Assembly: GCF_014904705.1 (NCBI RefSeq)
Contig: NZ_JACZCQ010000004.1
Span: 124,001-188,000, forward strand
Direction of reading: 5' to 3'
DNA length: 64,000 bases
Origin: Nisaea sediminum
GTDB taxonomy: Bacteria > Pseudomonadota > Alphaproteobacteria > Thalassobaculales > Thalassobaculaceae
Each line of letters begins with the position of its first letter. Position 1 is the stretch's first letter. The notes under the pieces were generated by a model. The model did not search any database, was not told the DNA's origin, and saw only the letters and a program-made list of their open reading frames with translations. The position numbers were made by a program, and so were the translations under genes. Positions 2,952 to 16,952 of this stretch are shown here, in pieces.

Positions 2952-4334
2952 TTACCAGACGGAAGCGGCCGACTCGCCCGCTATCCGGCCAAGCGCCACC
3001 GCCGTGAGCAGGCCGTTGCCGGACAGATAACCCGAGATATCCGGCCCGGAGACGCCGACGGCGGCGCCGCCCGCGGCGAAAAGGTTGGGAAAGCAGGAAC
3101 CGTCCTCGCGCAGCACCCGCGCATCGCCATCGACGGCGAGCCCGCCCTGGGTGTGGAACAGGGCCCCGGTGACGCGGACGGCAAAGAAGGGCGCCTGCAG
3201 CCCCGGCGTCTTGCCGAGATCGCGGCCGAACCGGTCGACCTCCTGCTCGTATGTTTCCAGAATCGCGGCCTCCAGCTTCTGCTGCGGCGCGCCGGTAAAT
3301 TCAGCCAGGGTGTCCAGGCTGTTGCATTGACGGACAGCGCCGGCATGGACCGCGTCCCGGTAGTCCGGAAACTCCAGCCCGAGCGTGTGCAGACGCGCGT
3401 CATAGATATCGAACGCGATGCCGCCCGGCTGCTTCAGGACGTCGACCGCCTGTTCGCTGTAGCCCTGATGCTCGTTAGCGAAACGATCGCCGTTGCGGTT
3501 CACCTGGATCCCGCCTTCCATCATCAGGGCCCAGGTGATCAGGATCCGGTGCGGCACGGCGAGCGAGCCGTGTCCCTGGCACGCCGTCAGATCGCGGATC
3601 TCGGCGCCGAGCGCCTCGCCCCAGATCACCGCATCGCCGGTATTGCCCGCATGTCCGTGATATTCGGCCCCGGCCATCGCGGGAATATGCTCCGCCACCA
3701 TGTCCGGATTGCCGCCATATCCGTTGCAGGCGAGAACCAGGCTGCCGCAGCCGATGAGCTCGCCGCTGCCGTCCGGCCGGGTAATCTCGACCCCGGCGAT
3801 CATGCCGTCGTCGTCAACGAAAAGCGTCGTCACGCGGGCATCGGTCATGACCGGAACGCCCGCCTCCATCACCGCCTGAAGCAAGCGGGTCAACAGCGCC
3901 TCGCCCGTGCGCTCCGGTACCGCATGCATCCGGTGCCGGCTGTGTCCCGGATAGAGAAAGCCGTCCAGCAGCTCGAAGGGAATACCGTGCTCGTCTTCGA
4001 GCCATTCCAATGCGGAGCCGATGGCCTCGACCACCTCCGCCGCGACCGTCGGATCGGAGCGATCGTGGGATTTGCGCTGGATATCCTCCAGGAACAGCCC
4101 GGGATCGTCGTCGATCCCCTGTGCCTGCTGCCAGCGCGTCGCCGCTGCAGGAATGAAACCCGAGGACATGGAGGTGGAGCCGAACGGGCTCTCGTCCCGT
4201 TCCAGAACCAGCACTTCGCCCCCCGCGTCGGCCGCCGCCAGAGCTGCGGTCAGCCCGCAGGCCCCGGCTCCGACGACGACGATCTGGACCCGGGTCTCGA
4301 ATTCGACCTCTTCGGCGGACGCGATGCCGATCAT
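2952..4334 (-). CDS. FAD-dependent oxidoreductase (fumarate reductase / 3-ketosteroid dehydrogenase / TcuA family)
   Basis: This 460-residue flavoprotein starts with an ADP-binding Rossmann motif, VVVGAGACGLTAALAAADAG, and ends with the family's FAD-binding segment (FPNLFAAGGAAVGVSG, GYLSGNGLL). The family (FAD_binding_2) performs alpha,beta-desaturation or its reverse on dicarboxylates, ketosteroids and tricarballylate. ATG 4334 overlaps the stop of the upstream hydrolase as ATGA. A much longer in-frame opening upstream lies inside the hydrolase gene and is not coding. As last gene of the operon it could supply the unsaturated acid used by the aconitase-type hydratase encoded earlier. The substrate is unknown. 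Confidence 0.85.
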   Translation of the reverse strand: MIGIASAEEVEFETRVQIVVVGAGACGLTAALAAADAGGEVLVLERDESPFGSTSMSSGFIPAAATRWQQAQGIDDDPGLFLEDIQRKSHDRSDPTVAAEVVEAIGSALEWLEDEHGIPFELLDGFLYPGHSRHRMHAVPERTGEALLTRLLQAVMEAGVPVMTDARVTTLFVDDDGMIAGVEITRPDGSGELIGCGSLVLACNGYGGNPDMVAEHIPAMAGAEYHGHAGNTGDAVIWGEALGAEIRDLTACQGHGSLAVPHRILITWALMMEGGIQVNRNGDRFANEHQGYSEQAVDVLKQPGGIAFDIYDARLHTLGLEFPDYRDAVHAGAVRQCNSLDTLAEFTGAPQQKLEAAILETYEQEVDRFGRDLGKTPGLQAPFFAVRVTGALFHTQGGLAVDGDARVLREDGSCFPNLFAAGGAAVGVSGPDISGYLSGNGLLTAVALGRIAGESAASVW

Positions 4335-4939
4335 ACAGACAGCCTTCCGATCACATCCGCGCAGCTCTCGATCCCGGCGACGCTCTTCAACGCCGCAATG
4401 TTGGTCTCGTGCACTTCCGGCGAGAAAGCGGCGCAGCCGTCCGAGAGCACAGTGACGTGGAAATCGCGGACGTGGGCGTCGCGCACCGTCGAGGCGACGC
4501 CGCCGTTGGTGACGATGCCGCCAACGACGAGATGCTCGATCCCGGCGCGGTTCAGCACCCATTCGAGGCGGCTCATGTAGAAGGCGGAGAAGGCCACCTT
4601 CTCGACCTTGATGTCGGCTGGCGCGAGGTCCTCGATCAGGTCCTGCCCGAAGCTGCCGGGGGCGAAATCGCCTTTCCGGAGGAACGGCCGGAGCTGTTTC
4701 AGGTGCGGCGAGACGAAGGGCTCGCCGCCCTTGCCCGGTACGAGCGTAAAATGGGTCGAGACGATCCAGCCGCCCACCGACCGCATGGCGTCCGCCACCG
4801 GCTTCAGCTTCGCCGGCAGAGCCGCGATCTCGGCCGCCTTGGCGCCGCCCCGGGCATAGGCGCCTTCGGGGTGGAGGAAGTCGTTCTGCATGTCGACCAG
4901 CAGCAGCGCCGTGGTCGCAGGATCGAAACTGCCCGCCAT
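4331..4939 (-). CDS. isochorismatase/cysteine-hydrolase family protein lacking the nucleophilic Cys
   Basis: This 202-residue alpha/beta protein has the isochorismatase fold. D16 in LLLVDMQNDFLHP and K114 in KVEKVAFSAF match the catalytic Asp and Lys of nicotinamidase- and ureidoacrylate-hydrolase-like enzymes. In the third motif, GGIVTNGGVASTVRDA, the usual Cys position holds Gly147; the DNA reads aac-ggc-ggc-gtc. The protein is therefore either a non-cysteine member such as isochorismatase itself, a divergent amidase, or inactive. It overlaps hyuA by one base (TGATG) and the FAD gene as ATGA, so it is translationally coupled and probably acts on the product of ring opening. Confidence 0.8.
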   Translation of the reverse strand: MAGSFDPATTALLLVDMQNDFLHPEGAYARGGAKAAEIAALPAKLKPVADAMRSVGGWIVSTHFTLVPGKGGEPFVSPHLKQLRPFLRKGDFAPGSFGQDLIEDLAPADIKVEKVAFSAFYMSRLEWVLNRAGIEHLVVGGIVTNGGVASTVRDAHVRDFHVTVLSDGCAAFSPEVHETNIAALKSVAGIESCADVIGRLSV

Positions 4940-7008
4940 CAGCCTTTCCTCGCGATCGTGAAGTTGCCGTAGCTGTCGACCGTGCCCGTGAGGTCCGGAT
5001 CGACGAGGATCGTCGTGTCCGCCTGCTCCAGCACCGCCGGCCCCGGCACCTCGGCCCCGACCGGAAGCGAGAGCCGGTCATAGACCGGGCTGTCCCACCA
5101 GGCGCCGTCGAACCAGATCTTCCGCGCGCCGGTGCGCGAGGCCTCAACCGAACCGCCGGCCGCCGGCGCCAGCAGGGCGAGATCGAATTTCGGCCGCTTG
5201 CCCATGACGGCGACGCGAAGATTCATCACCCGGATGCCTATACCTTCCAGCAGGCTGCCGAAGGCGGACCGGTAGGCCGCTTCGAAGGCCGAGCGGATCT
5301 TCGCCACATCGAGCGCCGCGGATCCACCGTTCATGGCGTCCGGCACCGGCACGGATACGGTGTGGGTCTGGCCGAGATAGAGCATGTCGAACTCGACCAT
5401 GCGCTCGACACCCTCGAAGACCACGTTGGCGCCAGAGAGCAGCCCTTCGGCCTCTGCGACGATCTCGTCGACCGCCGTGTTGAGCACAGCCACGTCGAGC
5501 GCGTCCAGAAGGGTGTTCAGGGTCTGCACCCGGTCGTGCCGCATGTCGGCGATGACGCAGCCGAGCGCGCTGGTGACACCCGGATAGCGCGGGACCAGCG
5601 CCCTCGCGAGGCCGACCTCCTTGATCAGCGCGCCGGTATGCAGCGCGCCGCCGCCGCCGAACGGCATGGCGGTGAAGCTCTTCGGATCGTGCCCGCGCTC
5701 GATGGAGACAAGACGGATCGCGCCCGCCATCTTGGCGTTGGCGACGCGCACGATGGCTTCCGCCGCTTCCATGACCTCGATGCCGAGCGGCTCGGCGACA
5801 TGGATGCGGATCGCCTCCTTCGCCGCTTCCACGTCGAGGCGGGCGAGCTTGCCGCCAATCGGGCGCTCAGCGTTGATCCGCCCCATGACGACATTCGCGT
5901 CGGTCACGGTGGGGCGTTTGTTGCCGAGGCCGTAGCAGACCGGACCCGGATCGGAGCCCGCGCTTTCCGGGCCGACCTGCAGCAGGCCGCCGCGGTCGAC
6001 CGAGGCGATGGAGCCGCCGCCGGCGCCGATGGTGGTGATCTCGATCATCGGGGTGCGGACCACCATGCCGAAATCGATCGAGGTCTGGGCGCTGAGCGCA
6101 CTCTCTCCGTCCGCGACGAGCGAGACGTCGAAGCTGGTGCCGCCCATATCGCAGGTGATGATGTTCGGCTCGCCCGCCGCCGCCGCGATATAGGCACCGG
6201 CAATCACGCCCGCCGCCGGGCCGGAGAGCGCGGTGCGCACCGGCAGGGCGCGCGCGACCTCGGCCGACATGACGCCGCCGTTCGACTGCACGATAAGCAC
6301 CTGGCCGCCGAAACCGCCTTCCCGGAGACCGTTTTCTAAGCGTTCGAGATAGTTCCCGACCGGCGGCTGCAGATAGGCGTTGAGAGACGCGGTCGAGCCG
6401 CGCTCGAACTCGCGGATTTCCGGCAGGATGACGCTGGACGCCGTCACATGCGGGTTCGGCCAGACCTGCTTCACCGCGTCCAGCGCGACCTTCTCGTTGG
6501 CATCGTTGGCATAGGCGTTGACGAAGAAGACGCAGACAGACTCGGCACCGCGCTCCAGCAAAATTTTTGCCGCCGCTTTGACCGCCTCCGGATCGACTGG
6601 CGTATGGACGGAGCCGTCCGCCAGCACCCGTTCGTCAACCTCCAGGCGGAGGTCGCGCGGGACGACGGGATCGAAACTGCCCCAGAGGCCCCAGGTCTGC
6701 GGCCGGTCGCGCCGGCGCATCTCCAGCACGTCGCGGAAACCGGTGGTGGTGATCACCCCTGTGCGGGCGCCGTTGCGCTCCAGCAGCGCGTTGGTGCCGA
6801 CCGTCGTGCCGTGCACGATGGTGCCGATGGCGCCGAGCTCGACACCGCCCTCGGCGATCCCGCCGCGGATGCCCTCAGACTGGTCCGGCTTGGTCGAGGG
6901 GACCTTGGCAACGCCGCAGGTGCCCGCCGCCTCGTCGAGGAAGAAGAGATCGGTGAAAGTCCCGCCGACATCGACTCCGACGACGGTCTTCCGGCTCATG
7001 TCATTCAT
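4939..7008 (-). CDS. hyuA: hydantoinase/oxoprolinase subunit A (HyuA-like)
   Basis: This 689-residue protein starts with an actin-like ATPase motif, VGVDVGGTFTDLFFLD, as in N-methylhydantoinase A, 5-oxoprolinase, caprolactamase and the acetone carboxylase beta subunit. Further conserved blocks are IVHGTTVGTNALLERNGA, LSGPAAGVIAGA and CDMGGTSFDVSL. The family couples ATP hydrolysis, by phosphorylating the substrate, to hydrolysis of a ring amide or to carboxylation. ATG 7008 overlaps the hyuB stop as ATGA and gives the canonical N-terminus; a longer upstream opening is a shadow inside hyuB. The paired B subunit favours a two-subunit amidohydrolase acting on a lactam, imide or hydantoin, but the exact substrate is open. 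Confidence 0.9.
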   Translation of the reverse strand: MNDMSRKTVVGVDVGGTFTDLFFLDEAAGTCGVAKVPSTKPDQSEGIRGGIAEGGVELGAIGTIVHGTTVGTNALLERNGARTGVITTTGFRDVLEMRRRDRPQTWGLWGSFDPVVPRDLRLEVDERVLADGSVHTPVDPEAVKAAAKILLERGAESVCVFFVNAYANDANEKVALDAVKQVWPNPHVTASSVILPEIREFERGSTASLNAYLQPPVGNYLERLENGLREGGFGGQVLIVQSNGGVMSAEVARALPVRTALSGPAAGVIAGAYIAAAAGEPNIITCDMGGTSFDVSLVADGESALSAQTSIDFGMVVRTPMIEITTIGAGGGSIASVDRGGLLQVGPESAGSDPGPVCYGLGNKRPTVTDANVVMGRINAERPIGGKLARLDVEAAKEAIRIHVAEPLGIEVMEAAEAIVRVANAKMAGAIRLVSIERGHDPKSFTAMPFGGGGALHTGALIKEVGLARALVPRYPGVTSALGCVIADMRHDRVQTLNTLLDALDVAVLNTAVDEIVAEAEGLLSGANVVFEGVERMVEFDMLYLGQTHTVSVPVPDAMNGGSAALDVAKIRSAFEAAYRSAFGSLLEGIGIRVMNLRVAVMGKRPKFDLALLAPAAGGSVEASRTGARKIWFDGAWWDSPVYDRLSLPVGAEVPGPAVLEQADTTILVDPDLTGTVDSYGNFTIARKG

Positions 7009-8741
7009 TGCGCAGACTCCGCGCGCAGGTGTTCGGTAGCCGCGGCATCGACGGAACCGTCGGCCGCGATGACGGTGCGGTAGGTTTCCTTTGCGGCCCC
7101 GGCGCTGACATAGCCGAGGCGCACGTCTTCGGCGACCGCCGCCGGATCGCGCTCCAGCACGTCGCCGTAGCCGCCGCCGCCCGGCGTCTCCAGCCGCACC
7201 TTCTGGCCTTTCGCCAGCTTGATGCCGACCATCTTGGAGGCCATCGGCGGGACGTGATCCCCGTCCGCCTGCTCGTAGGTGAATTTGTTCAGCGCTGCGG
7301 AACCGCCGCCGACCACGCCCTTCGGCGCGAAACGGCCACGCTCTCCGAAGAGGAAGACATCCGCCTTCTCCTCCAGCAGCTCGATCTCGTAGATCGCGCC
7401 TAGCCCGCCGCGATGCCGCCCGGCGCCGCCGCTGTCGGGGCGGAGTGCCCACTGGGTGAAGCGCACCGGATAGGCGGCCTCGAGGATCTCCATCGCCGGG
7501 ATCGTCGCGGTCGAGATCGGCGCGTTGCCATGGTTCAGACCGTCGCCCTTCGGATTGCCGCCATGGCCGCCGCCGAAGAAGGAGAACATCACCCAGCGCC
7601 GCCCGTCCTTGCGGTGCCCGGCGAGCGAGAGCGCGTTGATCGTGCCGTAGGCGCAGCCGTTCACCCGCTCCGGCGCCGCCGTGCTGAGCGCGACGAAGAC
7701 CGTGTCGATGATGCGCAGGATGGTTTCCGTGTACCCCCCGACCGGCTTCGGCGCGGAGACGCTGAGCAGGCTGCCCTCGGGAATAACGAACTCGATCGGC
7801 GCGAGCACGCCCGCATTGGCCGGGACGTCCTTGAAGACATGCTTCAGTGCCACGTAGCAGGAGGCGATGGCGGTCGAGCGGGAGATGTTCACCGGCCCGT
7901 CGCAGGCGGGCGAGGTGCGCGAGAAGTCGAGCACCATCTTCTCGCCCTCGATGACGATGTCGAGCGCGATGCGGAGCGGCTCGTCCACGATGCCGTCATT
8001 GTCGAGGAAATCGTCGGCGGAATAGCGTCCGTCCGGCATGTCGCCGATCAGGCTGCGCATGAGCTGGCCCGCGCGGTCCCGCAGCTCGGTCATGGCGCCC
8101 GCGACGGTGCCGGCTCCGTACTCGTCGAGCAGCGCTCCCAACCGCTCGTTGCCGAGCCGCAGCGCGTTGATCTGGCCGTTGAGGTCGCCGTAGAGACTTC
8201 CCGGCAGGCGAGAATTGGCCTTCAGGATATCGACCACGTCGGTGCGCATCTCGCCCCTGGCGAAGAGTTTCACCGGCGGGATCATCATCCCTTCCTGGAA
8301 ACTCTCGGTCGCGACAGGGTTGTAGTTGCCCGGCACGTTGCCTCCGACATCGTGCCAGTGGCCGACCGAGGCGAGGAAACAGAAGAGCTCGCCGTCCCGG
8401 TAGAAGGGCTGCACCAGCTTGAAGTCGGAAAGGTGGGTGCCGCCCTCGTAGGGATCGTTGAAGATGAAGACGTCGCCCTCGGAAATCCCCCCGGCGCCGA
8501 ACTTGTCGATCACCGCCTTCACCGCGAAGGACATGGCGCCGACGAAGATCGGCAGGCCGGACTTGCCCTGCACCAGCGTCTCGCCGGTGGTCGCGTGGTA
8601 GAGGCCGTGCGAGGCGTCATGTGCCTCGGCGATGATCGGGTTGAAGGCGCTGCGGAAAAGCGTCGCGTCCATCTCGTCGGCGATCTGCTCCAGCCGGCCC
8701 TTCAGAACCGCGAGCGTGACCGGATCGAGGTCGGCCATCAC
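7005..8741 (-). CDS. hyuB: hydantoinase/oxoprolinase subunit B (HyuB-like)
   Basis: This 578-residue protein has the normal length for hydantoinase B. It shows the family start (DPVTLAVLKGRLEQIADEM) and blocks such as IFNDPYEGGTHLSDFK, SVGHWHDVGGNVPGNY and the Gly-rich SFFGGGHGGNPKGDG near the C-terminus. It pairs with HyuA in an ATP-dependent ring-amide hydrolase. Both neighbouring genes overlap it as ATGA, which would keep A and B stoichiometric. Its position directly after the lyase gene ties ring opening to downstream carbon-skeleton cleavage in one transcript. Two adjacent ATGs are possible starts. Confidence 0.9.
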   Translation of the reverse strand: MMADLDPVTLAVLKGRLEQIADEMDATLFRSAFNPIIAEAHDASHGLYHATTGETLVQGKSGLPIFVGAMSFAVKAVIDKFGAGGISEGDVFIFNDPYEGGTHLSDFKLVQPFYRDGELFCFLASVGHWHDVGGNVPGNYNPVATESFQEGMMIPPVKLFARGEMRTDVVDILKANSRLPGSLYGDLNGQINALRLGNERLGALLDEYGAGTVAGAMTELRDRAGQLMRSLIGDMPDGRYSADDFLDNDGIVDEPLRIALDIVIEGEKMVLDFSRTSPACDGPVNISRSTAIASCYVALKHVFKDVPANAGVLAPIEFVIPEGSLLSVSAPKPVGGYTETILRIIDTVFVALSTAAPERVNGCAYGTINALSLAGHRKDGRRWVMFSFFGGGHGGNPKGDGLNHGNAPISTATIPAMEILEAAYPVRFTQWALRPDSGGAGRHRGGLGAIYEIELLEEKADVFLFGERGRFAPKGVVGGGSAALNKFTYEQADGDHVPPMASKMVGIKLAKGQKVRLETPGGGGYGDVLERDPAAVAEDVRLGYVSAGAAKETYRTVIAADGSVDAAATEHLRAESAQ

Positions 8742-9616
8742 GTGCTCTCCCCGTCGTATTTCCGGCCCGCCTCGAGAATCCCCGGCGTCCCGAGCAGCTC
8801 GTTCAGCTCGCGGAAATCGAGCATCCGCGCCTGGAAGGGCTTGGTGGAACCATGGGCGTGCAGGCTCGTGAAATATTCGGTGATGGTGACCGCGAGCGCG
8901 CGCATCAGGCCGCCCGGGAAGATCACGATGTCGAAACCGGCCGCCTGAAGTTCCTCCGCCGTCATCGCCGGGGTCTTGCCGCCCTCGACCATGTTGGCCA
9001 GCAGCGGAATGTCCGAGCCGAAACGTTTCACGACCTCGGCGATCTCGGCTTCGTCCCGAGGCGCCTCGACGAAGAGAACGTCGGCACCCGCCTGCTTGTA
9101 GGCCTCAGCCCGTTCCAGCGCCGCCTCGAAGCCCTCGACGCCGATCGCATCGGTGCGGGCGACGATCTGCGTCGCCTCGTCGCGCCGCGCATCCACGGCA
9201 GCCCGGATCTTGCCGGCCATTTCCGATACGGACACCAGCGCCTTGCCGTCGAGATGACCGCAGCGTTTCGGCATTGCCTGATCCTCGATCTGGATTCCGG
9301 CGGCGCCGGAACGCTCCAGCAGGCGCACGGTACGCTGTACGTTCAGCGCGTTGCCGAAGCCGGTATCGGCATCGACGATCAGCGGCAGGTCGACGCGTTC
9401 GGAGATGTGCGACACGACGTCGGCGACTTCCTCGAGCCCGAAGAGCCCGATATCGGGACGGCCGAGCCGGGTATAGGCGATCGATGCGCCGGAGACGTAG
9501 AGCGCCTCAAAGCCGGCTTTCGCGGCCGCCATGGCGCTGAAGGCGTCGAACACACCGGGCGCCACAAGGATATCGGGCTGCTTCAGTCGTTGTTTCAGGA
9601 CGCTTGACGGCGTCAT
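8738..9616 (-). CDS. isocitrate lyase/PEP mutase superfamily lyase (methylisocitrate- or dimethylmalate-lyase-like)
   Basis: This 292-residue TIM-barrel protein belongs to the ICL/PEP-mutase superfamily. The Mg-binding acids are in LIVDADTGFGN (D82, D84) and the lyase loop KRCGH is at 117-121; that Cys marks true lyases such as methylisocitrate lyase rather than PEP mutase. Such enzymes cleave 2-hydroxy-dicarboxylates (2-methylisocitrate, 2,3-dimethylmalate) or decarboxylate oxaloacetate. The gene overlaps the hydratase small subunit as ATGA. That pairing recalls the dimethylmaleate hydratase plus dimethylmalate lyase step of anaerobic nicotinate breakdown in Eubacterium barkeri, an analogy rather than proof. 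No prpC or prpD is nearby, which argues against a methylcitrate cycle. Confidence 0.85.
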   Translation of the reverse strand: MTPSSVLKQRLKQPDILVAPGVFDAFSAMAAAKAGFEALYVSGASIAYTRLGRPDIGLFGLEEVADVVSHISERVDLPLIVDADTGFGNALNVQRTVRLLERSGAAGIQIEDQAMPKRCGHLDGKALVSVSEMAGKIRAAVDARRDEATQIVARTDAIGVEGFEAALERAEAYKQAGADVLFVEAPRDEAEIAEVVKRFGSDIPLLANMVEGGKTPAMTAEELQAAGFDIVIFPGGLMRALAVTITEYFTSLHAHGSTKPFQARMLDFRELNELLGTPGILEAGRKYDGEST

Positions 9617-10098
9617 GAGCGCTTCTCCAGTCGTTGCTCGAGATAGGGAACGAGCCCGCCCGCCGCGACGATGCGGCGGAGATGCTCGGGAACGGGTTCG
9701 GCGGCGATCTGCGCGCCGGTGGTCTTGTTGGTAATGGTGCCGGAGGCCGGGTCGAGTTCCAGTTCGTGGCCGGCTTCGACGTCGGATTCGGCGTCGGCGA
9801 CGAGCGCCAGAAGGCCGAGATTGAAGGCGTTGCGGTAGAAGATCCCGCCGAAGCTTTTCGCGATGACCGCCGTCACGCCGAGCAGGACCAGCACCTCTGC
9901 CGCCTGCTCACGGCTTGAACCGATCCCGAAATTGCGCCCGGCGACGATAACGTCGCCCGGTTCGACCTCTTTCGCGAAATCGAGATCGATGGCCTCGAGG
10001 CAATGGGCCGCCAGATCCTCGATCGGGCCCTTCATGTACGCTCCAGGGGCGAGCAGGTCGGTGTCGACATTGTCGCCGTATTTCCAGACCCGGCTCAT
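9613..10098 (-). CDS. aconitase-type hydratase, small subunit (LeuD-like)
   Basis: This 161-residue swivel-domain protein resembles LeuD, the homoaconitase small subunit and DmdB. Typical elements are KYGDNVDTDLLAPG near the start, the substrate-binding GRNFGIGSSREQAAEVL and the following SFGGIFYRNAFNLGL. With the large subunit encoded just upstream it should form a two-subunit [4Fe-4S] hydro-lyase isomerising or hydrating a substituted maleate or malate. ATG 10098 overlaps the large-subunit stop as ATGA; a longer upstream opening lies within that gene. The absence of leuB or leuA here argues against leucine biosynthesis. Confidence 0.9.
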   Translation of the reverse strand: MSRVWKYGDNVDTDLLAPGAYMKGPIEDLAAHCLEAIDLDFAKEVEPGDVIVAGRNFGIGSSREQAAEVLVLLGVTAVIAKSFGGIFYRNAFNLGLLALVADAESDVEAGHELELDPASGTITNKTTGAQIAAEPVPEHLRRIVAAGGLVPYLEQRLEKRS

Positions 10099-11384
10099 CG
10101 GCCGTTCTCCGCGAGGAAAAGCCGCGGATCGGCGACACGTCCGGCAACGGCGGTCGCCGCCACCGTATAGGGCGAGCCCAGCCAGACCTTGGAGGAACGC
10201 GCACCCATGCGGCCCTTGAAGTTGCGCGCGGTGGAGGCCATGCAGGTCTCGCCCTCGGCCAGCACGCCCGCGCCGTAGCCCGCGCAGGCGCCGCAGCCGG
10301 ACGGCATCAAGATCGCGCCAGCCTCGGTCAGCTTGGCGAGGGTTCCGTCGGCGGCAGCGGCAGCGGTCACACGAGTCGAGGCCGGGGCAATCAGCAGGCG
10401 CGTCGAGCTCGCGACCTTGCGGCCGCAGAGCACTTCGGCGGCCATGCGGAGATCCTCCAGCTTCGCGCCGGTGCAGGCGCCGATATAGCACTGGTCGATC
10501 GCGGTATCGTCCGCCTCCTCGACAGGCCCCGAATTGGCCGGGCTGTCCGGGGCCGCGACCTGAGGACCAAGCGCCGAGGCGTCAAACTCGTGAACCACCC
10601 GGTAGGTTGCATCCTTGTCCCCGACGAACGGGACGCCTTCGGAGGGATTGGCTCCGGCGGCACGAATATACTCCGACGTCGTTCCGTCAGCGGCGATCAG
10701 CCCCGCCTGCGCGCCGAGTTCGGCAGCCATGTTGGACATGGTCATGCGCTCGGTCATGGAGAGGCCGGCGATGGTGCTGCCGGTGTATTCGACCGCCTGG
10801 TAGTCGCCGCCGTCCATGCCGAGTGTGGCGCAGAGCTTCAGCATCATGTCCTTGGCCGAGGAACCGTGCGGCAGCGTCCCCTGCCAGTCGATGCGGATCG
10901 TCTCCGGCACCCGGATCCAGGTTTCCCCTGTTACCAGCACGCCCGCCATGTCCGTCGCGCCGACACCGAACATGTAGCAGCCGAAGGCGCCGCCGGTCGG
11001 CGAGTGGCTGTCGCCGCCGACCACGAACATGCCGGGCTTGAGGTGTCCGCGCTCCGGCAGCACTACATGGCAGATACCCTGCTGGTCGTAGAAGCTCTCG
11101 ATCTCCTGGTCCTTCACCCAGTCGCGGGTGAGCTTCAGGATCGCCGCGCTCTGCTGGTCGACCGCCGGAACGTAATGATCGGAAATGACCACGACCTTGC
11201 GGTTGTCCCAGACCTTGACCCCGAGCCGTTCCAGCACCGGCTTCACTCGGCGCGGCCCGCCGCTGTCATGGATCATGGCGAGATCGACCCGGCAGGTGAC
11301 GATCTCCCCTGCCTGGACGCTATCCTGCCCGGCGGCGCGTGCGATGATCTTTTCCGCGAGCGTCATGCCCGTTGTCTGGCCCAT
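10095..11384 (-). CDS. aconitase-type hydratase, large subunit (LeuC / homoaconitase / dimethylmaleate hydratase-like)
   Basis: This 429-residue aconitase-superfamily protein has three cluster cysteines in conserved contexts: C304 in YIGACTGAKLEDL and C364/C367 in PSGCGACAGYGAG. GGDSHSPTGGAFGCYMFGVG is the family's substrate and Fe-S loop. Its length fits LeuC/homoaconitase large subunits. Only 3 nt separate it from livF upstream and it overlaps the small subunit downstream, so it belongs to the importer operon. It probably hydrates an unsaturated dicarboxylate to a 2-hydroxy acid for the following lyase. Oxidative damage to the cluster would make this step O2-sensitive. Confidence 0.88.
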   Translation of the reverse strand: MGQTTGMTLAEKIIARAAGQDSVQAGEIVTCRVDLAMIHDSGGPRRVKPVLERLGVKVWDNRKVVVISDHYVPAVDQQSAAILKLTRDWVKDQEIESFYDQQGICHVVLPERGHLKPGMFVVGGDSHSPTGGAFGCYMFGVGATDMAGVLVTGETWIRVPETIRIDWQGTLPHGSSAKDMMLKLCATLGMDGGDYQAVEYTGSTIAGLSMTERMTMSNMAAELGAQAGLIAADGTTSEYIRAAGANPSEGVPFVGDKDATYRVVHEFDASALGPQVAAPDSPANSGPVEEADDTAIDQCYIGACTGAKLEDLRMAAEVLCGRKVASSTRLLIAPASTRVTAAAAADGTLAKLTEAGAILMPSGCGACAGYGAGVLAEGETCMASTARNFKGRMGARSSKVWLGSPYTVAATAVAGRVADPRLFLAENGR

Positions 11385-11387
11385 GGG

Positions 11388-12089
11388 CTACATCCCCAGA
11401 TAGGAGCGGCGCAGCTCCTCATCGTTCATCAGATCCCGCGCCGCGCCCTCGACGGTGATCAGGCCGTTCTCCATCACATAGGCACGGTCGGCGATCTCCA
11501 GCGACTGCACGACATTCTGCTCGACCAAAAAGACGGCAAGCCCTTGTGAGCGCAGCTTCTGGATCAGCGTGAACATCTCCTCCACCAGCAGCGGCGAGAG
11601 ACCGAGCGAGGGCTCGTCGAGGATCAGCAGGCGCGGTTCCGCCATCAGGCCGCGGCCGATCGCCAGCATCTGCTGCTCGCCGCCGGAGAGCGTTCCGGCA
11701 TATTGCCCGAAGCGTTCCTTCAGGCGCGGGAAGGTCTCGACTACATGTTCGATATTGCGCACCCGGTTCGGCTTGGCGCGGCGGTAGGAGCCGAGTTCGA
11801 GATTCTCCCGCACGGTCATGTTCGGGAACACCCGGCGGCCTTCCGGCACCTGGATCAGCCCCCGGTCGACGATCTCTTCCGTCGAGGCGCCGGCGATCTC
11901 GATCCCGTCGAAGCGGATGCTTCCGCCGAACGGTTTGAAGATCCCGGAGACATTGTTGTTCAGCGTCGACTTGCCCGCGCCGTTGCTGCCGAGCAGGGCG
12001 ACGAGTTCGCCCTCGCCGACCTTGAGCGAGACGCCGTGCAGCACCTTGGCGTGGCCGTAGCCGGCGCGGAGATCCTTGACCTCAAGCAT
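11388..12089 (-). CDS. livF: Liv-type ABC transporter ATPase (LivF-like)
   Basis: This 233-residue ABC ATPase has Walker A GSNGAGKST, signature LSGGEQQML and Walker B LLILDEPSLGL, and the LivF ending region (VEGAARDLMNDEELRRSYLGM). It would energise a branched-chain-amino-acid-type (HAAT) importer for amides, amino acids or small organic acids. It overlaps livG by 8 bp. The residues after Walker A (LNNNVSG) differ slightly from the common LLRTISG. The catabolic genes around it suggest it imports their substrate. Confidence 0.92.
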   Translation of the reverse strand: MLEVKDLRAGYGHAKVLHGVSLKVGEGELVALLGSNGAGKSTLNNNVSGIFKPFGGSIRFDGIEIAGASTEEIVDRGLIQVPEGRRVFPNMTVRENLELGSYRRAKPNRVRNIEHVVETFPRLKERFGQYAGTLSGGEQQMLAIGRGLMAEPRLLILDEPSLGLSPLLVEEMFTLIQKLRSQGLAVFLVEQNVVQSLEIADRAYVMENGLITVEGAARDLMNDEELRRSYLGM

Positions 12090-12828
12090 CGGCGCCTCCC
12101 GCGGTCTTCATCCGTTCCGCCGCACCATGCCCGAGATAGGCCTCGATCACCTGCGGATCGTGCGCGATCTCGGCCGGGCTGCCCTCGGCGATGATCTCAC
12201 CGTAATTCAGCACATAGGCCCGGTCGGAGAGTTTCATCACGGCCTGCATGACATGCTCGATCAGCAGAATGGTGACGCCACTCTTGCGGATACCCTGGAT
12301 GATCTCGACGATTTCGTGGATCTCGGTCGCGTTGAGCCCCGCCATGACCTCGTCGAGCAGCAGCAGTTTCGGCTGGGTTGCGAGGGCCCGCGCCAGTTCG
12401 AGACGCTTACGCCCGGCAACGGTCAGATCGCCCGCGGACTGGTCGAGCCGACCGCCCATGCCGACCCGCTCGGCGACTTCTGTTGCCAGCTCCAGCGCCT
12501 CGCCCCGGTTCGCGATCCTTGTATGGGCGCCGACAGCGATGTTCTCGCGCACGGTCAGTCCGGCGAAGGGCTTCACGACCTGGAAGGTGCGGACCATGCC
12601 GCGCAGGCAGATCTCGTGCGGCTTTCGCCCGGTAATGTCCCGGCCGTCGAGCATGACGGTCCCGCCGTTGGGCTTCAGGAAACCCGCGATGGAAGCGAAG
12701 AGCGTGGTCTTTCCGGCGCCGTTCGGGCCGATCAGCGAGACGATCTCGCCCTTGTCGACGTGCAGGCTCGCGCCATTGACCGCGACGAGGCCGCCGAACC
12801 GCTTGGTGAGGGAGGAGACCTCAAGCAT
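12082..12828 (-). CDS. livG: Liv-type ABC transporter ATPase (LivG-like)
   Basis: This 248-residue ABC ATPase has Walker A GPNGAGKTT and Walker B LLLLDEVMAGLN. The signature region reads LTVAGRKRLELARAL; LivG proteins often depart from LSGGQ here, so this is not taken as a defect. It also has the LivG feature TFQVVKPFAGLTVRENI. It forms the ATPase pair with LivF. It overlaps livM by 8 bp upstream and livF by 8 bp downstream, within one transcript. Confidence 0.92.
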   Translation of the reverse strand: MLEVSSLTKRFGGLVAVNGASLHVDKGEIVSLIGPNGAGKTTLFASIAGFLKPNGGTVMLDGRDITGRKPHEICLRGMVRTFQVVKPFAGLTVRENIAVGAHTRIANRGEALELATEVAERVGMGGRLDQSAGDLTVAGRKRLELARALATQPKLLLLDEVMAGLNATEIHEIVEIIQGIRKSGVTILLIEHVMQAVMKLSDRAYVLNYGEIIAEGSPAEIAHDPQVIEAYLGHGAAERMKTAGGADA

Positions 12829-13849
12829 CGCCGGCCTCCTTCCTCGCAGAAAAGCGTTTCCAGATCACCTCGGCGAGGCCCACGAGGCCGCGCGGCATGT
12901 AGGCGAGGATCAGCACCAGGATGATGCCGAAGAGAATGAGGTCGACACCCGGCCGGTCACCGAGCATGGCGCCGATAGTCTCTTTCGCGAACTCGCCGAC
13001 CAGATGAATGAAGGCGGAGCCGAGCAGCGGGCCTATCACCGTACCGAGGCCGCCGATGATCGCGGCGAACAGCGCCTCCACCGACTTGCCCGGCCCGTAG
13101 GCGATGCCGGGATCGACGAAGAGGAACTTCTGCACGTAGTAGATCCCGGCAAGCGAGGTCACGGCGGCGGACAGGCAGATCGCCCGCATCTTCACCCGGA
13201 AGGCGTCGATACCGAGCGCCTCGGCCGCATCCTCGTCCTCTCGCACCGCCTGCAGTTGGGCGCCGAAGCGGGAATGGTTCAGCCAGCCGGTCACGGCGAA
13301 TCCGATCAGCAGGCAGAACAGGATCACGTAATAGAACCCCGCCTCCGCCAGGAAAGGCCCTGCAAAGGTGAACTGGAAGCTCTCGATCGCCTTCTCAGGA
13401 TCCTGGTTCAGCGCGAGCTGGATGCCGCTCCCGCCCTCGGTCACCGAGACGAGCGAGCGGGCGAGCACGTGGAACGCCTCGGCGAAAGCGAGCGTGACCA
13501 GTGCGAAGTAGGAACCGCGCAAACCGTAGCGGAAGCTGAGGAAACCGACGAAGGCGCCGACCGCGACGGCGCCCGCGATCGCGAACCAGAGCGTGACCCA
13601 CGGGCTCCAGCCGAGCTTGAACTGCAGCAGCGCCTGCAGGTAGGCCGCGGTCCCGAAGAACAGCGCGTGGCCGAAGGAATACTGCCCGCCATAGCCGCCG
13701 AGGATGTTCCAGCCCTGGCCGAGCAGGGCGGCGAAGAGTGTGAGCTCGATGAACTCCATCCAGCGCCCGGAGCTGATGGCAAAGGGGGCCGCGAGCAGGG
13801 CCGCGATCAGGATCGCCCAGCCGATCCGCTGTGTCCTGGCGTCGATCAT
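12821..13849 (-). CDS. livM: Liv-type ABC transporter permease (LivM-like)
   Basis: This 342-residue inner-membrane permease has eight or more hydrophobic segments and the family blocks GYGGQYSFGHALFFGTAAYL and VREDEDAAEALGID (the EAA-type loop contacting the ATPase). It ends with ILVLILAYMPRGLVGL, as in LivM. It overlaps livH as ATGA and livG by 8 bp. With LivH it should form the transmembrane channel of the importer. Confidence 0.92.
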   Translation of the reverse strand: MIDARTQRIGWAILIAALLAAPFAISSGRWMEFIELTLFAALLGQGWNILGGYGGQYSFGHALFFGTAAYLQALLQFKLGWSPWVTLWFAIAGAVAVGAFVGFLSFRYGLRGSYFALVTLAFAEAFHVLARSLVSVTEGGSGIQLALNQDPEKAIESFQFTFAGPFLAEAGFYYVILFCLLIGFAVTGWLNHSRFGAQLQAVREDEDAAEALGIDAFRVKMRAICLSAAVTSLAGIYYVQKFLFVDPGIAYGPGKSVEALFAAIIGGLGTVIGPLLGSAFIHLVGEFAKETIGAMLGDRPGVDLILFGIILVLILAYMPRGLVGLAEVIWKRFSARKEAGDA

Positions 13850-14745
13850 AGCCGTTGTCCGAAGAGGCCGGTCGGCCGGAAGAGAAGAATCAGGATGAAG
13901 ATCGCCGAGATCGTGATCAGGCCGAGGCTTTCGCCGAGATAGAGCCGGCCGATCTGCTCCGTCACGCCGATGATCAGGCCACCGACCAGCGCGCCGACGA
14001 AACTACCCATGCCGCCGAGCACGACGACGGTGAAGGCGATCAGCACGAAGAGATAGCCGACCTGCGGGAAGACGGCATAGGTCGGAGCCAGAAGGCTCGC
14101 CGCCGCGGCGACGCAGGCGGTGCCGATGCCGAAGCTGACGGCGAAGATATGCTCGACATTGATGCCCATCAGGCGCGCGCCCTGCCGCTCCTTCGCGACG
14201 GCGCGGATCGCCTTGCCGGTATCGGTGAATTTCATGAAGGCCCAGAGTGCGCCGGTGATCAGCAGGGAACCCGCCAGCGCCGCGAGCTGCGGCCAGACGA
14301 CATAGACCACGCCGAGGTCGATCCCGTCGAAATCATACGGCACCTGGACGTTGCGCTCGTTTGCCGAGAAGGCGAAGAGCGCGAAATTCTCGAGCACAAT
14401 GGAAACCCCGAGGGTCGCGAGGAGAATGATCTCGTCCCGCCCGTGGCTCGCCCGCCCGATGACGCTTCGCTGCAGGAGGTAGCCGAAGCAGAACCCGCCC
14501 GGCACGACGATCAGCATTGCAACATAGGGGTCGACCCCGAACGCGCTCCAGAGAAAGAAGACCGCGTACATGGCCAGCATCAGAAGGCTGCCATGGGCGA
14601 AATTGATGATGTGGAGCACGCCGTAGATCAGCGTGAGCCCGAGCGCGACAAGAGCGTAGATCGCACCGAGGAAGACGCCGCTGATGGCGGAGCCGAAGAC
14701 CGTCTCAAAAGAATAGGACGGCAGGCTGATACCGAGAAAATCCAT
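13846..14745 (-). CDS. livH: Liv-type ABC transporter permease (LivH-like)
   Basis: This 299-residue permease has LivH hallmarks: GAIYALVALGLTLIYGVL near the N-terminus, then INFAHGSLLML, and VLGGMGSFVGALVGGL toward the end. It is separated from livK by a 77-bp spacer holding a strong hairpin, which may lower its expression relative to the binding protein. It is coupled to livM by an ATGA overlap. Confidence 0.92.
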   Translation of the reverse strand: MDFLGISLPSYSFETVFGSAISGVFLGAIYALVALGLTLIYGVLHIINFAHGSLLMLAMYAVFFLWSAFGVDPYVAMLIVVPGGFCFGYLLQRSVIGRASHGRDEIILLATLGVSIVLENFALFAFSANERNVQVPYDFDGIDLGVVYVVWPQLAALAGSLLITGALWAFMKFTDTGKAIRAVAKERQGARLMGINVEHIFAVSFGIGTACVAAAASLLAPTYAVFPQVGYLFVLIAFTVVVLGGMGSFVGALVGGLIIGVTEQIGRLYLGESLGLITISAIFILILLFRPTGLFGQRL

Positions 14746-14774
14746 TGATGTCAGTCGCGTTCAGGCCGCAATGA

Positions 14775-14806
14775 GCGGCGGAGACGGCCCCAACCGTCCC
14801 CGCCGC
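14775..14806 (-). promoter_or_regulatory. intercistronic hairpin between livK and livH
   Basis: Twelve of thirteen positions pair (14775-14787 with 14794-14806) around a 6-nt loop, with a single A-C mismatch. There is no T-run, so partial read-through is expected. Such hairpins often protect the upstream mRNA or attenuate read-through, giving more binding protein than permease. Here the hairpin lies in the only long spacer of an otherwise overlapped operon. Confidence 0.65.
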
Positions 14807-14822
14807 GGCTCAAAGCCGGTCG

Positions 14823-16064
14823 TCAGGCCGGGCGCGGGAACACCGGAGCCTTGGTCGCGAACTCTTTCGGAGCGACGACTTCGATCTCCTTGTCGAGAAC
14901 CTGCATGACCATCGCCTGCGCGCCCTCGTTCTGGCCGTTGACCATCTTGGTCGGACCATAGGGCATGAAGTGCCCGTCCCAGGTGCTGGAGGCCATCGCC
15001 TCGATGATCTTGGCGCGGTCGGCCGAACCGGCGCGCTCGATCGCGTCGACGGCGAACATCACCGCCTCATAGGCAAGGAACACTTCGTAGGAGTAGGACA
15101 GGCCCGCCGCCTCGGTCTTCTTGCGCAGGGCGAGCGCGGCGTCCTTGCGCGGATCGAACCAGTGATTGCAGTCCATCACATATTCGGCCGCATCCGGGAA
15201 CTCGTTCACGAGCCGGTACTGCGAGGAGGCACCGCCGAGCACCGAATAGATCGCCTTCGGCTGGACCCGCTGACGCTGCAGGGTGCGCAGGAACAGCACG
15301 CCGTCGCCGTAATAGTGGGACGGGATCACCAGATCCGGGTTCAGTTCCTTGATCTTCAGCGCGATGTTGTTGAAGTCCTTATTGCCGGTCGGGTGCGGCA
15401 GGATTTCCTTCACCTCGAAACCGGCCGGGGTCAGGTTCTTCTCCAGAAGCCCCGCCATGCCGCTGCCGAAGGGCGTCGTGTTCTCATGCACGATGACCAC
15501 CGACTTCACCGGGCTGCCGGCTTCCTTGTTGATGGCGATCAGGTGATCGACGCCTTCCTTGGTGATGGTGCCGAAGCCCGGACCGAAGCGGAAGGTGTTC
15601 TCGAGGCCACGGGAAACGATCTGATCGCTCACCCCGACATCGACGACATGCGGAATGCCGTATTTCGCGGCGGTCTGCGTGGTGGCGAGGCAGATACCGG
15701 AGGCATAGGCGCCGACCACGGCGGAGACGCCCGCCTCGTTGAATTTCTCGACCTCGGCCGCACCGATCTCGGCCTTGGACTGGGCATCGCCGAGCACGGC
15801 TTCAAGCGGGGCGCCACCGAGCGCCTTCAGACCGCCGGCCGCATTGACCTCGTCGATCGCAGTGACCGCGCCGAAGCGGCACTGGGTGCCGGAGAACTGC
15901 AGGAAGCCGGTCACCGGATGGACGACGCCGATCTTCACCGGATCGGCCGCGCGGGCGATGTGCGGCATGCCGAGTGTGCCGGCCGCCGCAACAGCGCCGC
16001 CGGCGGCCACGCCGGCCAGAACCTGGCGGCGGGAGAATTCATTGAAAGTCTTTGTCTTTGTCAT
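14823..16064 (-). CDS. livK: Liv-type ABC transporter substrate-binding protein (Tat-exported)
   Basis: This 413-residue periplasmic binding protein of the Leu/Ile/Val-amide family has a clear twin-arginine signal: SRRQVLAGVAAGGAVAAAGT, ending near HIARA. The mature part starts with PVKIGVVHPVTGFLQFSG and contains the Peripla_BP_6 pattern. Its length and divergence from classic LivK point to an amide- or organic-acid-binding member (compare AmiC/UrtA-like). It is the first structural gene after gntR (24-nt gap), as expected for the most expressed product. Tat export would imply folding before export; a bound cofactor is not evident. Confidence 0.9.
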   Translation of the reverse strand: MTKTKTFNEFSRRQVLAGVAAGGAVAAAGTLGMPHIARAADPVKIGVVHPVTGFLQFSGTQCRFGAVTAIDEVNAAGGLKALGGAPLEAVLGDAQSKAEIGAAEVEKFNEAGVSAVVGAYASGICLATTQTAAKYGIPHVVDVGVSDQIVSRGLENTFRFGPGFGTITKEGVDHLIAINKEAGSPVKSVVIVHENTTPFGSGMAGLLEKNLTPAGFEVKEILPHPTGNKDFNNIALKIKELNPDLVIPSHYYGDGVLFLRTLQRQRVQPKAIYSVLGGASSQYRLVNEFPDAAEYVMDCNHWFDPRKDAALALRKKTEAAGLSYSYEVFLAYEAVMFAVDAIERAGSADRAKIIEAMASSTWDGHFMPYGPTKMVNGQNEGAQAMVMQVLDKEIEVVAPKEFATKAPVFPRPA

Positions 16065-16088
16065 TGCCTTATCCCCTGTTCGGTTGGC

Positions 16089-16910
16089 TCAGTCTTTTGC
16101 GGTCGTTACCGCGTCCTGGCTGGGTGTCCAGGTATTGTGGGTCTCTCCCTGCACCCGCGAGAGCACCATGCGGTACTGGTACTGGTCGGGGCGGTAGAGC
16201 GCGGTGATGTACTCGACCGGGCGCCCGTCCCGGTCCTTCACGATGCGGTTGATCTTCAGCAAAGCCGATCCGGCGGAAATGCCGAGATGCCCGGCAACCC
16301 CCGGATCCGCGAGCGTGGCGGAAATCGCTTGGCTCGCCGCGTCGACCTGCACCCCGCTCCGCTCCAGAAGCGAGAGCAGCGGCTTGTTCGCGAGATCGGC
16401 AGCGTCGTAGCGACGGCCGATATCGGCCGGGACATAGGTGGTCAGGAAGGAGAAGGGCTTGCCCTCGACGCTGCGCATCCGGACGGAGCGCTGCACTTCC
16501 TGGCCGATCGGACAGGAGAGGGCTGCGGCCACCTCCTCGTTCGCCGGGACATAGCCGAAGGAGATCAGCTTCACCTTGGTCTCGAGCCCCATGGCGATCA
16601 GGTTCTCGAGCAGCCCGTCCATGGAGGACTGGAACGCCCGCGCCTTCGGCCGGTAGCGCACCCGGGTGCCGCGTCCGCGCTCGCGCACGACGAGGCCTTC
16701 GGCGGCCAGTTCGTCCAGCGCCCGCTTCGCCGTGATGCGCGAGACGTCGTAGGTCTCCGCGAGCTCCTGTTCACCCGGGATCAGCGCGTCGTACTCGTGC
16801 AGGCCGTCAGTGATCTGCTGGCGCAAAATAAGGAAAATCTGGTGATAGAGCGGCATGCGAAGCGCCCCGCTCACCCCCTCGATCCCCGCACTGACAACCC
16901 GGTCGGCCAT
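16089..16910 (-). CDS. GntR-family (HutC/UTRA) transcriptional regulator
   Basis: This 273-residue regulator has an N-terminal winged helix (LYHQIFLILRQQITDGLHEYDALIPGEQELAE, then VSRITAKRALDELAAEGLVVRERGRGTRV) followed by a UTRA ligand-binding domain, as in HutC. AGGAG sits 5 nt before ATG 16910. It is the first gene of the large operon, 24 nt before livK, and an inverted repeat (16919-16952) begins 8 bp beyond its start codon. This predicts autoregulated repression of the whole operon, relieved by the imported compound or an intermediate. Confidence 0.9.
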   Translation of the reverse strand: MADRVVSAGIEGVSGALRMPLYHQIFLILRQQITDGLHEYDALIPGEQELAETYDVSRITAKRALDELAAEGLVVRERGRGTRVRYRPKARAFQSSMDGLLENLIAMGLETKVKLISFGYVPANEEVAAALSCPIGQEVQRSVRMRSVEGKPFSFLTTYVPADIGRRYDAADLANKPLLSLLERSGVQVDAASQAISATLADPGVAGHLGISAGSALLKINRIVKDRDGRPVEYITALYRPDQYQYRMVLSRVQGETHNTWTPSQDAVTTAKD

Positions 16911-16918
16911 GAAAACTC

Positions 16919-16952
16919 CTAAACGCTAATTGTTATATTGATATGCGTTTAG
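16919..16952. promoter_or_regulatory. inverted-repeat operator upstream of gntR
   Basis: Perfect 8-bp arms CTAAACGC and GCGTTTAG are separated by an AT-rich 18-bp spacer that looks like promoter DNA. The element lies directly upstream of the gntR Shine-Dalgarno, where repressor binding would block transcription of the operon. The assignment to this GntR is inference from position. Confidence 0.55.

Follow-up and report, generated by a model that had tools for sequence, protein, structure and literature searches.

We analysed a 64,000-nucleotide (nt) stretch of the Nisaea sediminum genome (contig NZ_JACZCQ010000004.1, positions 124,001 to 188,000; hereafter the window) and found in it a 13-gene operon that we are inclined to read as a system that imports and degrades a small cyclic imide with a five-membered ring, of the alkyl-maleimide or succinimide class. 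All 13 genes are intact frames on the minus strand, running from position 16910 down to 2952, as a first-pass annotation made from the sequence alone had described; the span given there starts correctly at 2952, but its other end, 16952, lies 42 nt beyond the start of gntR. From livH onward the junctions measure −4, −8, −8, +3, −4, −4, −1, −4, −1 and −4 nt, which bears out the remark of that annotation that nearly every one of them overlaps by 1–8 nt (9 of 10, the exception being the 3-nt gap between livF and the hydratase genes), while 24 nt separate gntR from livK and 77 nt separate livK from livH. Pfam and NCBIfam scans covered nine of the 13 proteins, none of which reaches a named-function (equivalog) model; LivH, LivM, LivG and LivF were assigned by sequence reading and tblastn synteny.

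In the pathway that we propose, LivKHMGF would import the cyclic imide and a flavin adenine dinucleotide (FAD) enzyme, which lacks the two carboxylate-handling arginines of its relatives, would adjust the ring double bond, converting a succinimide to a maleimide or the reverse. HyuAB would then open the ring with ATP to give a cis half-amide of the maleamate type, and an isochorismatase-fold protein with a D-K-G triad would free ammonia, the cis carboxylate of the substrate attacking the amide with acid–base help from Asp16 and Lys114. The hydratase HydLS would hydrate the resulting cis dicarboxylate to an alkyl-malate, which a lyase with a KRCGH motif would cleave, yielding a carboxylate together with pyruvate or a different 2-keto acid. 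Because the starting compound would be a ring imide, the acid would reach the aconitase-family enzyme as the cis isomer. We infer this order of steps, the use of ATP, the chemistry of the D-K-G enzyme and the substrate class from the gene families, their linkage, the exchange of cassettes among loci and the conserved active-site residues. Maleimides and succinimides appear to fit best, with hydantoin-type ureides and pyridine-derived imides as alternatives, and an origin of the substrate in tetrapyrroles is only a possibility.

Linkage of the hydratase, lyase and HyuAB genes

To describe the conservation of the operon from the hydratase side we used the best 80 of 329 relatives from named genomes, a set that leans toward close relatives; outside annotated records, gene calling relied on open frames and a GC-position filter. 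Four further genomes of the genus retain the full set of 13 genes (in one of them split over two contigs) and large parts of the operon are kept in other families, so the arrangement is not a chance one. In the same stretch as the hydratase, these 80 loci carry orthologs of the lyase (58), HyuB (46), HyuA (43), the isochorismatase-fold protein (38), the GntR regulator (35), the FAD enzyme (27) and the Liv transporter (24), and 16 carry a TRAP transporter. When only the 55 loci with 6.5 kb or more of downstream sequence were considered, omitting the other 25, HyuAB was present in 37, a polysaccharide-deacetylase-fold (PDA) type in 6 and neither in 12. Among the 37 HyuAB-bearing loci, 36 have the lyase, 36 the isochorismatase-fold gene, 24 the FAD gene and 23 gntR.

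Viewed from the other side, a HyuB ortholog (E up to 1e-180) occurs in 28 of 385 alphaproteobacterial genomes, and a hydratase-type gene lies near it in 22 of these: a HydL ortholog in 14, a second LeuC/LeuD-type hydratase in 5 (66–70% to the Azospirillum one) and an MmgE/PrpD-type gene in 3. The remaining six, three of them on contigs shorter than 9 kb, show a lyase without a hydratase (3) or neither gene (3); a lyase ortholog with at least 55% identity was found in 20 of the 28. Related sets with varied gene order are present on plasmids of Paraburkholderia, Variovorax, Azospirillum, Sulfitobacter, Neorhizobium and Roseomonas. The first-pass annotation had proposed a single catabolic pathway, to be given up if the hydratase and lyase genes were rarely kept with HyuAB; they were found together from both sides (37 of 55 and 22 of 28), and this linkage, along with the exchange of ring-opening cassettes described below, supports the proposal.

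The same counts bear on a different explanation, namely that one transcript joins two unrelated modules, a HyuAB ring hydrolase and a hydratase–lyase pair serving a separate acid. The 12 hydratase loci of 55 devoid of both HyuAB and PDA relatives are in keeping with it, as are locus L065, which has the hydratase, lyase and FAD genes without HyuAB, and three genomes of one genus (L171–L173), in which HyuAB is present and the lyase was not found. However, the genes are conserved jointly over Alpha- and Betaproteobacteria and equivalent cassettes replace each other within the operon, and we regard a pair of independent modules as very unlikely.

Exchange of ring-opening cassettes

HyuB (7005–8738) and HyuA (4939–7008) are the beta and alpha subunits of a HyuAB-type cyclic-amide hydrolase. 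The two adjacent genes encode full-length Hydantoinase_B and Hydantoinase_A domains, the latter with its N and C domains, and the nearest Protein Data Bank (PDB) entry to HyuA is N-methylhydantoinase 7hk5, followed by 5-oxoprolinase 6yra. The best NCBIfam models for both subunits are those of caprolactamase CapAB; these equivalogs were missed widely (529.6 bits for HyuA and 336.2 for HyuB vs 1000), and a caprolactam route was discarded.

In 10 loci HyuB, HyuA and the isochorismatase-fold gene are replaced by a second isochorismatase-fold protein (ISO2) and PDA proteins, the latter encoded by two genes in tandem in nine of the 10 (nine were inspected). This cassette follows the lyase on the same strand in L079, L083, L087, L088, L109 and L118 and lies nearby on the opposite strand in L112, L113 and L187; L042 was counted among the 10, yet its hydratase is only 42% identical and its layout is outside the comparison. 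In L083 the order is GntR-LivKHMGF-HydL-HydS-lyase-[ISO2-PDA-PDA]-FAD, the remainder being as in the window. The two cassettes are unmixed at thresholds of 45% for ISO2, 40% for PDA and 60% for HyuB: the first isochorismatase type accompanies HyuB in 62 of 74 loci, the other 12 being cut off or below the limit, and ISO2 in none, while ISO2 is present in all 10 PDA loci and the first type in none. Below these thresholds some mixing was seen in HyuAB loci, with a PuuE-type gene at 30–32% in L161 and L173 and an ISO2-like gene at 35% in L178. The HydL tree, a quick one with many weak forks, needs at least four changes between the HyuAB and PDA states.

The PDA proteins are nearest to PuuE allantoinase (about 87 bits), which a passage of PMC9304392 relates to cyclic imidases that have been characterised. 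For ISO2 the nearest proteins are N-carbamoylsarcosine amidase (127 bits) and 4l07, the P. putida S16 maleamate amidase (119 bits), and the nucleophilic cysteine is kept in all ten ISO2 proteins. The PuuE-type gene of L161 (15035–15949) directly follows the FAD gene of that HyuAB-type operon, and its product exceeds the cut-off for PuuE allantoinase (435.4 vs 424.6). On a Haloferax plasmid a 41% hydratase relative is accompanied by a dihydropyrimidinase/hydantoinase-type hydrolase (below the model cut-offs), a Cys isochorismatase, a CoA-transferase and an HMG-CoA-lyase-type gene. Since unrelated ring-opening families, the PuuE fold and, in one distant locus, the dihydropyrimidinase type, take the place of HyuAB, the exchange fits the opening of a ring amide. 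A CoA-transferase and an HMG-CoA-lyase-type gene are also found in Peribacillus, which hints that in these distant loci the C–C bond may be cleaved via CoA. In L186 (Haloferax gibbonsii plasmid pHG2) the imide-like set lies three genes from a hutUGIH histidine-utilisation operon.

Active sites and the choice of substrate

The isochorismatase-fold protein of the window (4331–4939; Pfam Isochorismatase) was aligned to 3kl2, the triuret hydrolase TrtA and RutB, and Gly147 was found at the position of the catalytic cysteine. All 63 rows (at least 50% identity and 75% coverage) share D16, K114, G146 and G147. The D-K-C triad of the class that includes RutB, BiuH, maleamate amidase and N-carbamoylsarcosine amidase is thus incomplete, though D16 and K114 are kept, and the residues match instead D38-K122-G155 of PhzD, the D-K-G triad of the PhzD/EntB isochorismatase type. 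Both D-K-C amidohydrolases and Cys-less members such as PhzD belong to the isochorismatase superfamily, according to a passage of PMC5353710. We do not place the protein in isochorismatase proper, because its sequence and its AlphaFold2 model, which confirms the fold and holds no ligand information, are nearer to 3kl2, RutB and BiuH. Given the glycine in place of the cysteine, it is no ordinary half-amidase, despite a model closest to that branch, and the deamidation that the first-pass annotation assigned to it cannot be that of a usual Cys amidase. According to a passage of PMC8751315 that cites Kirby and co-workers, intramolecular cyclisation leads to the cleavage of substituted maleic acid amides. 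Since such amides cleave themselves, acid–base residues alone could suffice; this is the reason that we offer for the absent cysteine, and by analogy we propose a nucleophile-free release of ammonia that would use the substrate's own cis carboxylate.

The triad also bears on whether the substrate could be a cyclic ureide. HyuAB or a PuuE-like enzyme would then convert a substituted hydantoin into an N-carbamoyl acid by opening its ring, decarbamoylation would follow, and a skeleton of the unsaturated dicarboxylate kind would go to the hydratase and lyase. N-methylhydantoinase, PuuE allantoinase and N-carbamoylsarcosine amidase, the nearest solved relatives of HyuA, PDA and ISO2, speak for such a route, together with the cut-off-passing PuuE of L161 and the Haloferax hydrolase. 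However, Gly147 leaves the HyuAB-type operon without a Cys amidase that could take off the carbamoyl group, the operon holds no gene to remove the leftover amino group, and the hydratase and lyase families of this operon act on dicarboxylates. For these reasons we consider a ureide an unlikely substrate.

Next to the isochorismatase-fold gene lies that of the FAD dehydrogenase/reductase (2952–4334; FAD_binding_2), which is devoid of a heme domain. A fold search with its structure model, which carries no ligand information, returned the urocanate/fumarate reductase type. None of the 25 named models listed is reached by the protein; its score of 235.4 against flavo_cyto_c is under the cut-off of 285.45, and tricarballylate degradation was rejected, the TcuA equivalog being missed (161.2 vs 369 bits). 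H255, Y292, H394 and Y436 are invariant in 20 of 20 and in 44 of 44 rows (at least 40% identity and 75% coverage; the 44-row alignment starts two residues earlier, so that the same sites are numbered 257/294/396/438). The two arginines of the fumarate/succinate-type enzymes Fcc3 and UrdA (Arg402 and Arg544 in Fcc3 numbering) are therefore replaced by Tyr292 and Tyr436 in all 44 rows, with both histidines kept. 3-Ketosteroid dehydrogenases use Tyr acid–base groups, and the Tyr/Tyr site suggests a ring carbonyl substrate and a redox step ahead of ring opening. The first of the two arginines has been proposed as the proton donor in Fcc3 and UrdA (Arg402/Arg411), as a passage of PMC7921117 reports. 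With tyrosines at these positions the FAD enzyme may act on the ring, and the desaturation of an open-chain acid that the first-pass annotation had foreseen loses its footing.

The last two steps would fall to the hydratase and the lyase. HydL (10095–11384), the LeuC/homoaconitase-type large subunit, scores 470.6 against the NCBIfam hacA_fam model (TIGR01343; cut-off 385.7) and passes at the subfamily level (hacA and archaeal IPMI) without reaching an equivalog; its nearest PDB entry is the isopropylmalate/citramalate isomerase 4nqy. C304, C364 and C367, which we take to be the ligands of a 4Fe-4S cluster, are invariant in 8 of 8 rows. The small subunit HydS (9613–10098) belongs to the LeuD/DmdB subfamily (TIGR02087, 162.5 vs 108.95). 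Leucine biosynthesis by a LeuC/LeuD isopropylmalate isomerase was rejected, the equivalogs being missed (LEU2, 402 vs 610.65; leud, 144.4 vs 245.85). The ICL/PEP-mutase superfamily C–C lyase (8738–9616; Pfam PEP_mutase) keeps D84 and the KRCGH motif, which we located at residues 117–121 in agreement with the first-pass description, in 80 of 80 rows. Its C-terminal part, of 71 residues only, mixes motifs of methylisocitrate lyase and dimethylmalate lyase. As a candidate, PrpB of the methylcitrate cycle was set aside; its equivalog was missed (310.4 vs 354.4 bits) and no citrate synthase is present among the 13 genes. For these residue counts we retained rows with at least 45% identity for HydS and 55% for the lyase, at a coverage of at least 75%, and removed loci judged to be duplicates of one genome.

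HydS carries a Y-M-K-G loop whose lysine (residue 23; position 25 in the aligned stretch) is Lys in 87 of 92 rows, Arg in 3 and Ser in 2. The equivalent residue is presumably Arg in homoaconitase, whose loop motif we did not find in the open-access literature, and hydrophobic in isopropylmalate isomerase, and the substrate may carry a third carboxylate. This would suit a pyridine- or pyrrole-derived imide produced by a molybdenum hydroxylase, such as a 2,6-dihydroxypyridine carboxylate (an aconitate imide), which would be opened to a tricarboxylate, hydrated by HydLS and cleaved by the lyase like isocitrate or methylisocitrate. Besides the loop lysine, which could bind the third carboxylate, a molybdenum-hydroxylase-type small-subunit gene was found in 7 of 84 clustered hydratase loci (three genomes counted twice) and, by eye, in L178, which hints at an N-heterocycle origin; Pfam was run on one of them, and the large subunits of two were covered as well. 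The MmgE/PrpD neighbours described below also recall methylcitrate chemistry. Against this, the 13 genes include no molybdenum hydroxylase, that cluster was not seen in 77 of the 84 loci, and we did not find such a route described in the open-access literature; we judge it improbable. As a separate observation, a single run of genes on one strand combines HydLS with two large subunits of the molybdenum-hydroxylase type and their partners in L092 (8316–19101) and L061. This may be another pathway that makes use of the hydratase; the L092 run includes a 3-ketosteroid-dehydrogenase-like FAD protein.

Several observations weigh against a cyclic imide pathway of the kind we favour. Both ring openers are missing from 12 of the 55 hydratase loci, the FAD and gntR genes accompany only 24 and 23 of the 37 HyuAB loci, L171–L173 lack a detectable lyase, and two other HyuAB genomes show neither hydratase nor lyase across 14–20 kb. 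The solved relatives nearest to HyuA, PDA and ISO2 are all ureide enzymes, and the PDA proteins match the imidase-related 3qbu only weakly (32.8 bits vs about 87 for PuuE). The FAD model is overall nearest to urocanate and fumarate reductases, with ketosteroid dehydrogenases behind. In Neorhizobium and Roseomonas, MmgE/PrpD genes stand alongside one for LeuD or LeuC, in L088 and L156 they share a locus with HydLS, and a SnoaL/tautomerase protein found in 25 of the 80 loci has no place in the scheme.

The imide pathway has one more specific version, in which the operon would finish the pyrrole rings of chlorophyll and heme, importing the maleimides formed on their oxidation (hematinic acid and ethylmethylmaleimide) and the reduced succinimides and taking them to pyruvate and glutarate or butyrate. 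The reduced succinimides would be desaturated on the ring, the rings would be opened with ATP, and the labile dialkyl-maleamate would shed ammonia by self-catalysis in the nucleophile-free isochorismatase-fold enzyme. We give this version a small chance; if true, it would supply a missing end of marine pigment breakdown.

Variant loci, neighbouring genes and known systems

At the upstream end of the operon lie the GntR/UTRA transcriptional regulator (16089–16910; Pfam UTRA and GntR) and the LivK-type periplasmic binding protein (14823–16064; Pfam Peripla_BP_6), which scores far under the cut-off of the NCBIfam LivK-type model (73.7 vs 477 bits). These are followed by the permeases LivH (13846–14745) and LivM (12821–13849) and the ATPases LivG (12082–12828) and LivF (11388–12089). 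Among the loci, Liv alternates with TRAP transporters, and L161 has an ATP-binding cassette (ABC) system of the polar amino-acid type, read by eye. Upstream of gntR, between 17167 and 19825, we read by eye an IclR-type regulator on the minus strand and then nitrilase-like and threonine-dehydratase-like genes on the plus strand, possibly a separate nitrile or amide route. A 512-residue protein encoded at 19871–21409 reads like a sedolisin-type (S53) peptidase.

MmgE/PrpD takes the hydratase slot in L161, L175 and L178 and was not found in the 20 kb at G115. As it co-occurs with LeuC/LeuD-type hydratase genes in other loci, it may be an extra step. Genes of the arylmalonate-decarboxylase family, to which maleate isomerases are presumably kin, occur in L095, L178 and L185 (below the cut-offs in L185), and an old-yellow-enzyme gene that reaches none of the named models lies in the Neorhizobium locus; both hint at maleate-type chemistry around some loci.

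The open reading frame L111:6364–6924 and 25 others of the same cluster encode a SnoaL/DUF4440 domain, many with an N-terminal 4-oxalocrotonate-tautomerase-like domain, and most lie beside gntR or near the operon. No such SnoaL/tautomerase partner was found next to the operon in Nisaea; matches to the SnoaL domain at 35–38% occur elsewhere in 3 of 5 genomes. In L063, L069, L105, L107, L108, L110 and L121 HydL is accompanied by a different lyase, 40–43% to that of the window, and several of these loci have class II aldolase or TauD-type genes and dipeptide-type or TRAP transporters; they would represent another use of the hydratase.

Each of the families is known. What is apparently new is the combination of genes and how widely it occurs, the coupled exchange of opener and isochorismatase type, and the D-K-G partner of HyuAB, as we found no description of them in the open-access literature. 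Marine and soil members of the Alphaproteobacteria and Betaproteobacteria carry the operon or a swapped variant of it, partial and more distant versions are present in a bacillus and a haloarchaeon, and one substrate screen could give a pathway to many genomes together. The cassette swaps offer a built-in test of the ring-opening step, and the HyuAB partner without the Cys poses a concrete question of enzymology.

Finally, we compared the operon with known systems. Cyclic imide catabolism by an imidase and a half-amidase, as in the fungal HxnM-HxnN pair or with the maleamate amidase of P. putida S16, likewise opens a ring and then cleaves an amide, and the PDA/Cys-isochorismatase cassette of the sister loci has related folds; the window, in contrast, has HyuAB with a Cys-less isochorismatase-fold partner, followed by a hydratase and a lyase. 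N-methylhydantoin/creatinine degradation is similar in that HyuA is closest to N-methylhydantoinase among solved structures and an isochorismatase-fold gene stands next to it, but the operon has no sarcosine-oxidase-type gene and does have the hydratase and lyase. That pathway was rejected as a candidate, since its linked Cys N-carbamoylsarcosine amidase is missing, with G147 in the place of the cysteine. The methylcitrate cycle (PrpD/AcnD, PrpB) also runs through a hydratase and a KRCGH-type lyase to a keto acid, and MmgE/PrpD genes are present in some loci; it differs in the citrate-synthase-type gene, absent from the 13, and in PrpB, whose cut-off is missed. In the dimethylmaleate branch of nicotinate fermentation (DmdAB and dimethylmalate lyase) a LeuD/DmdB-type hydratase is again followed by an ICL/PEP-mutase superfamily lyase, which there acts on the hydrated alkyl-maleate. 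Enamidase, methyleneglutarate mutase, methylitaconate isomerase and the enzymes of nicotinate ring reduction are not among the 13 genes (nine scanned, the search being confined to the operon), and the acid would come, unlike in that fermentation, from ring opening of an imported cyclic amide. The operon would work like an imide-to-alkylmalate version of the dimethylmaleate branch rather than as a member of nicotinate fermentation.

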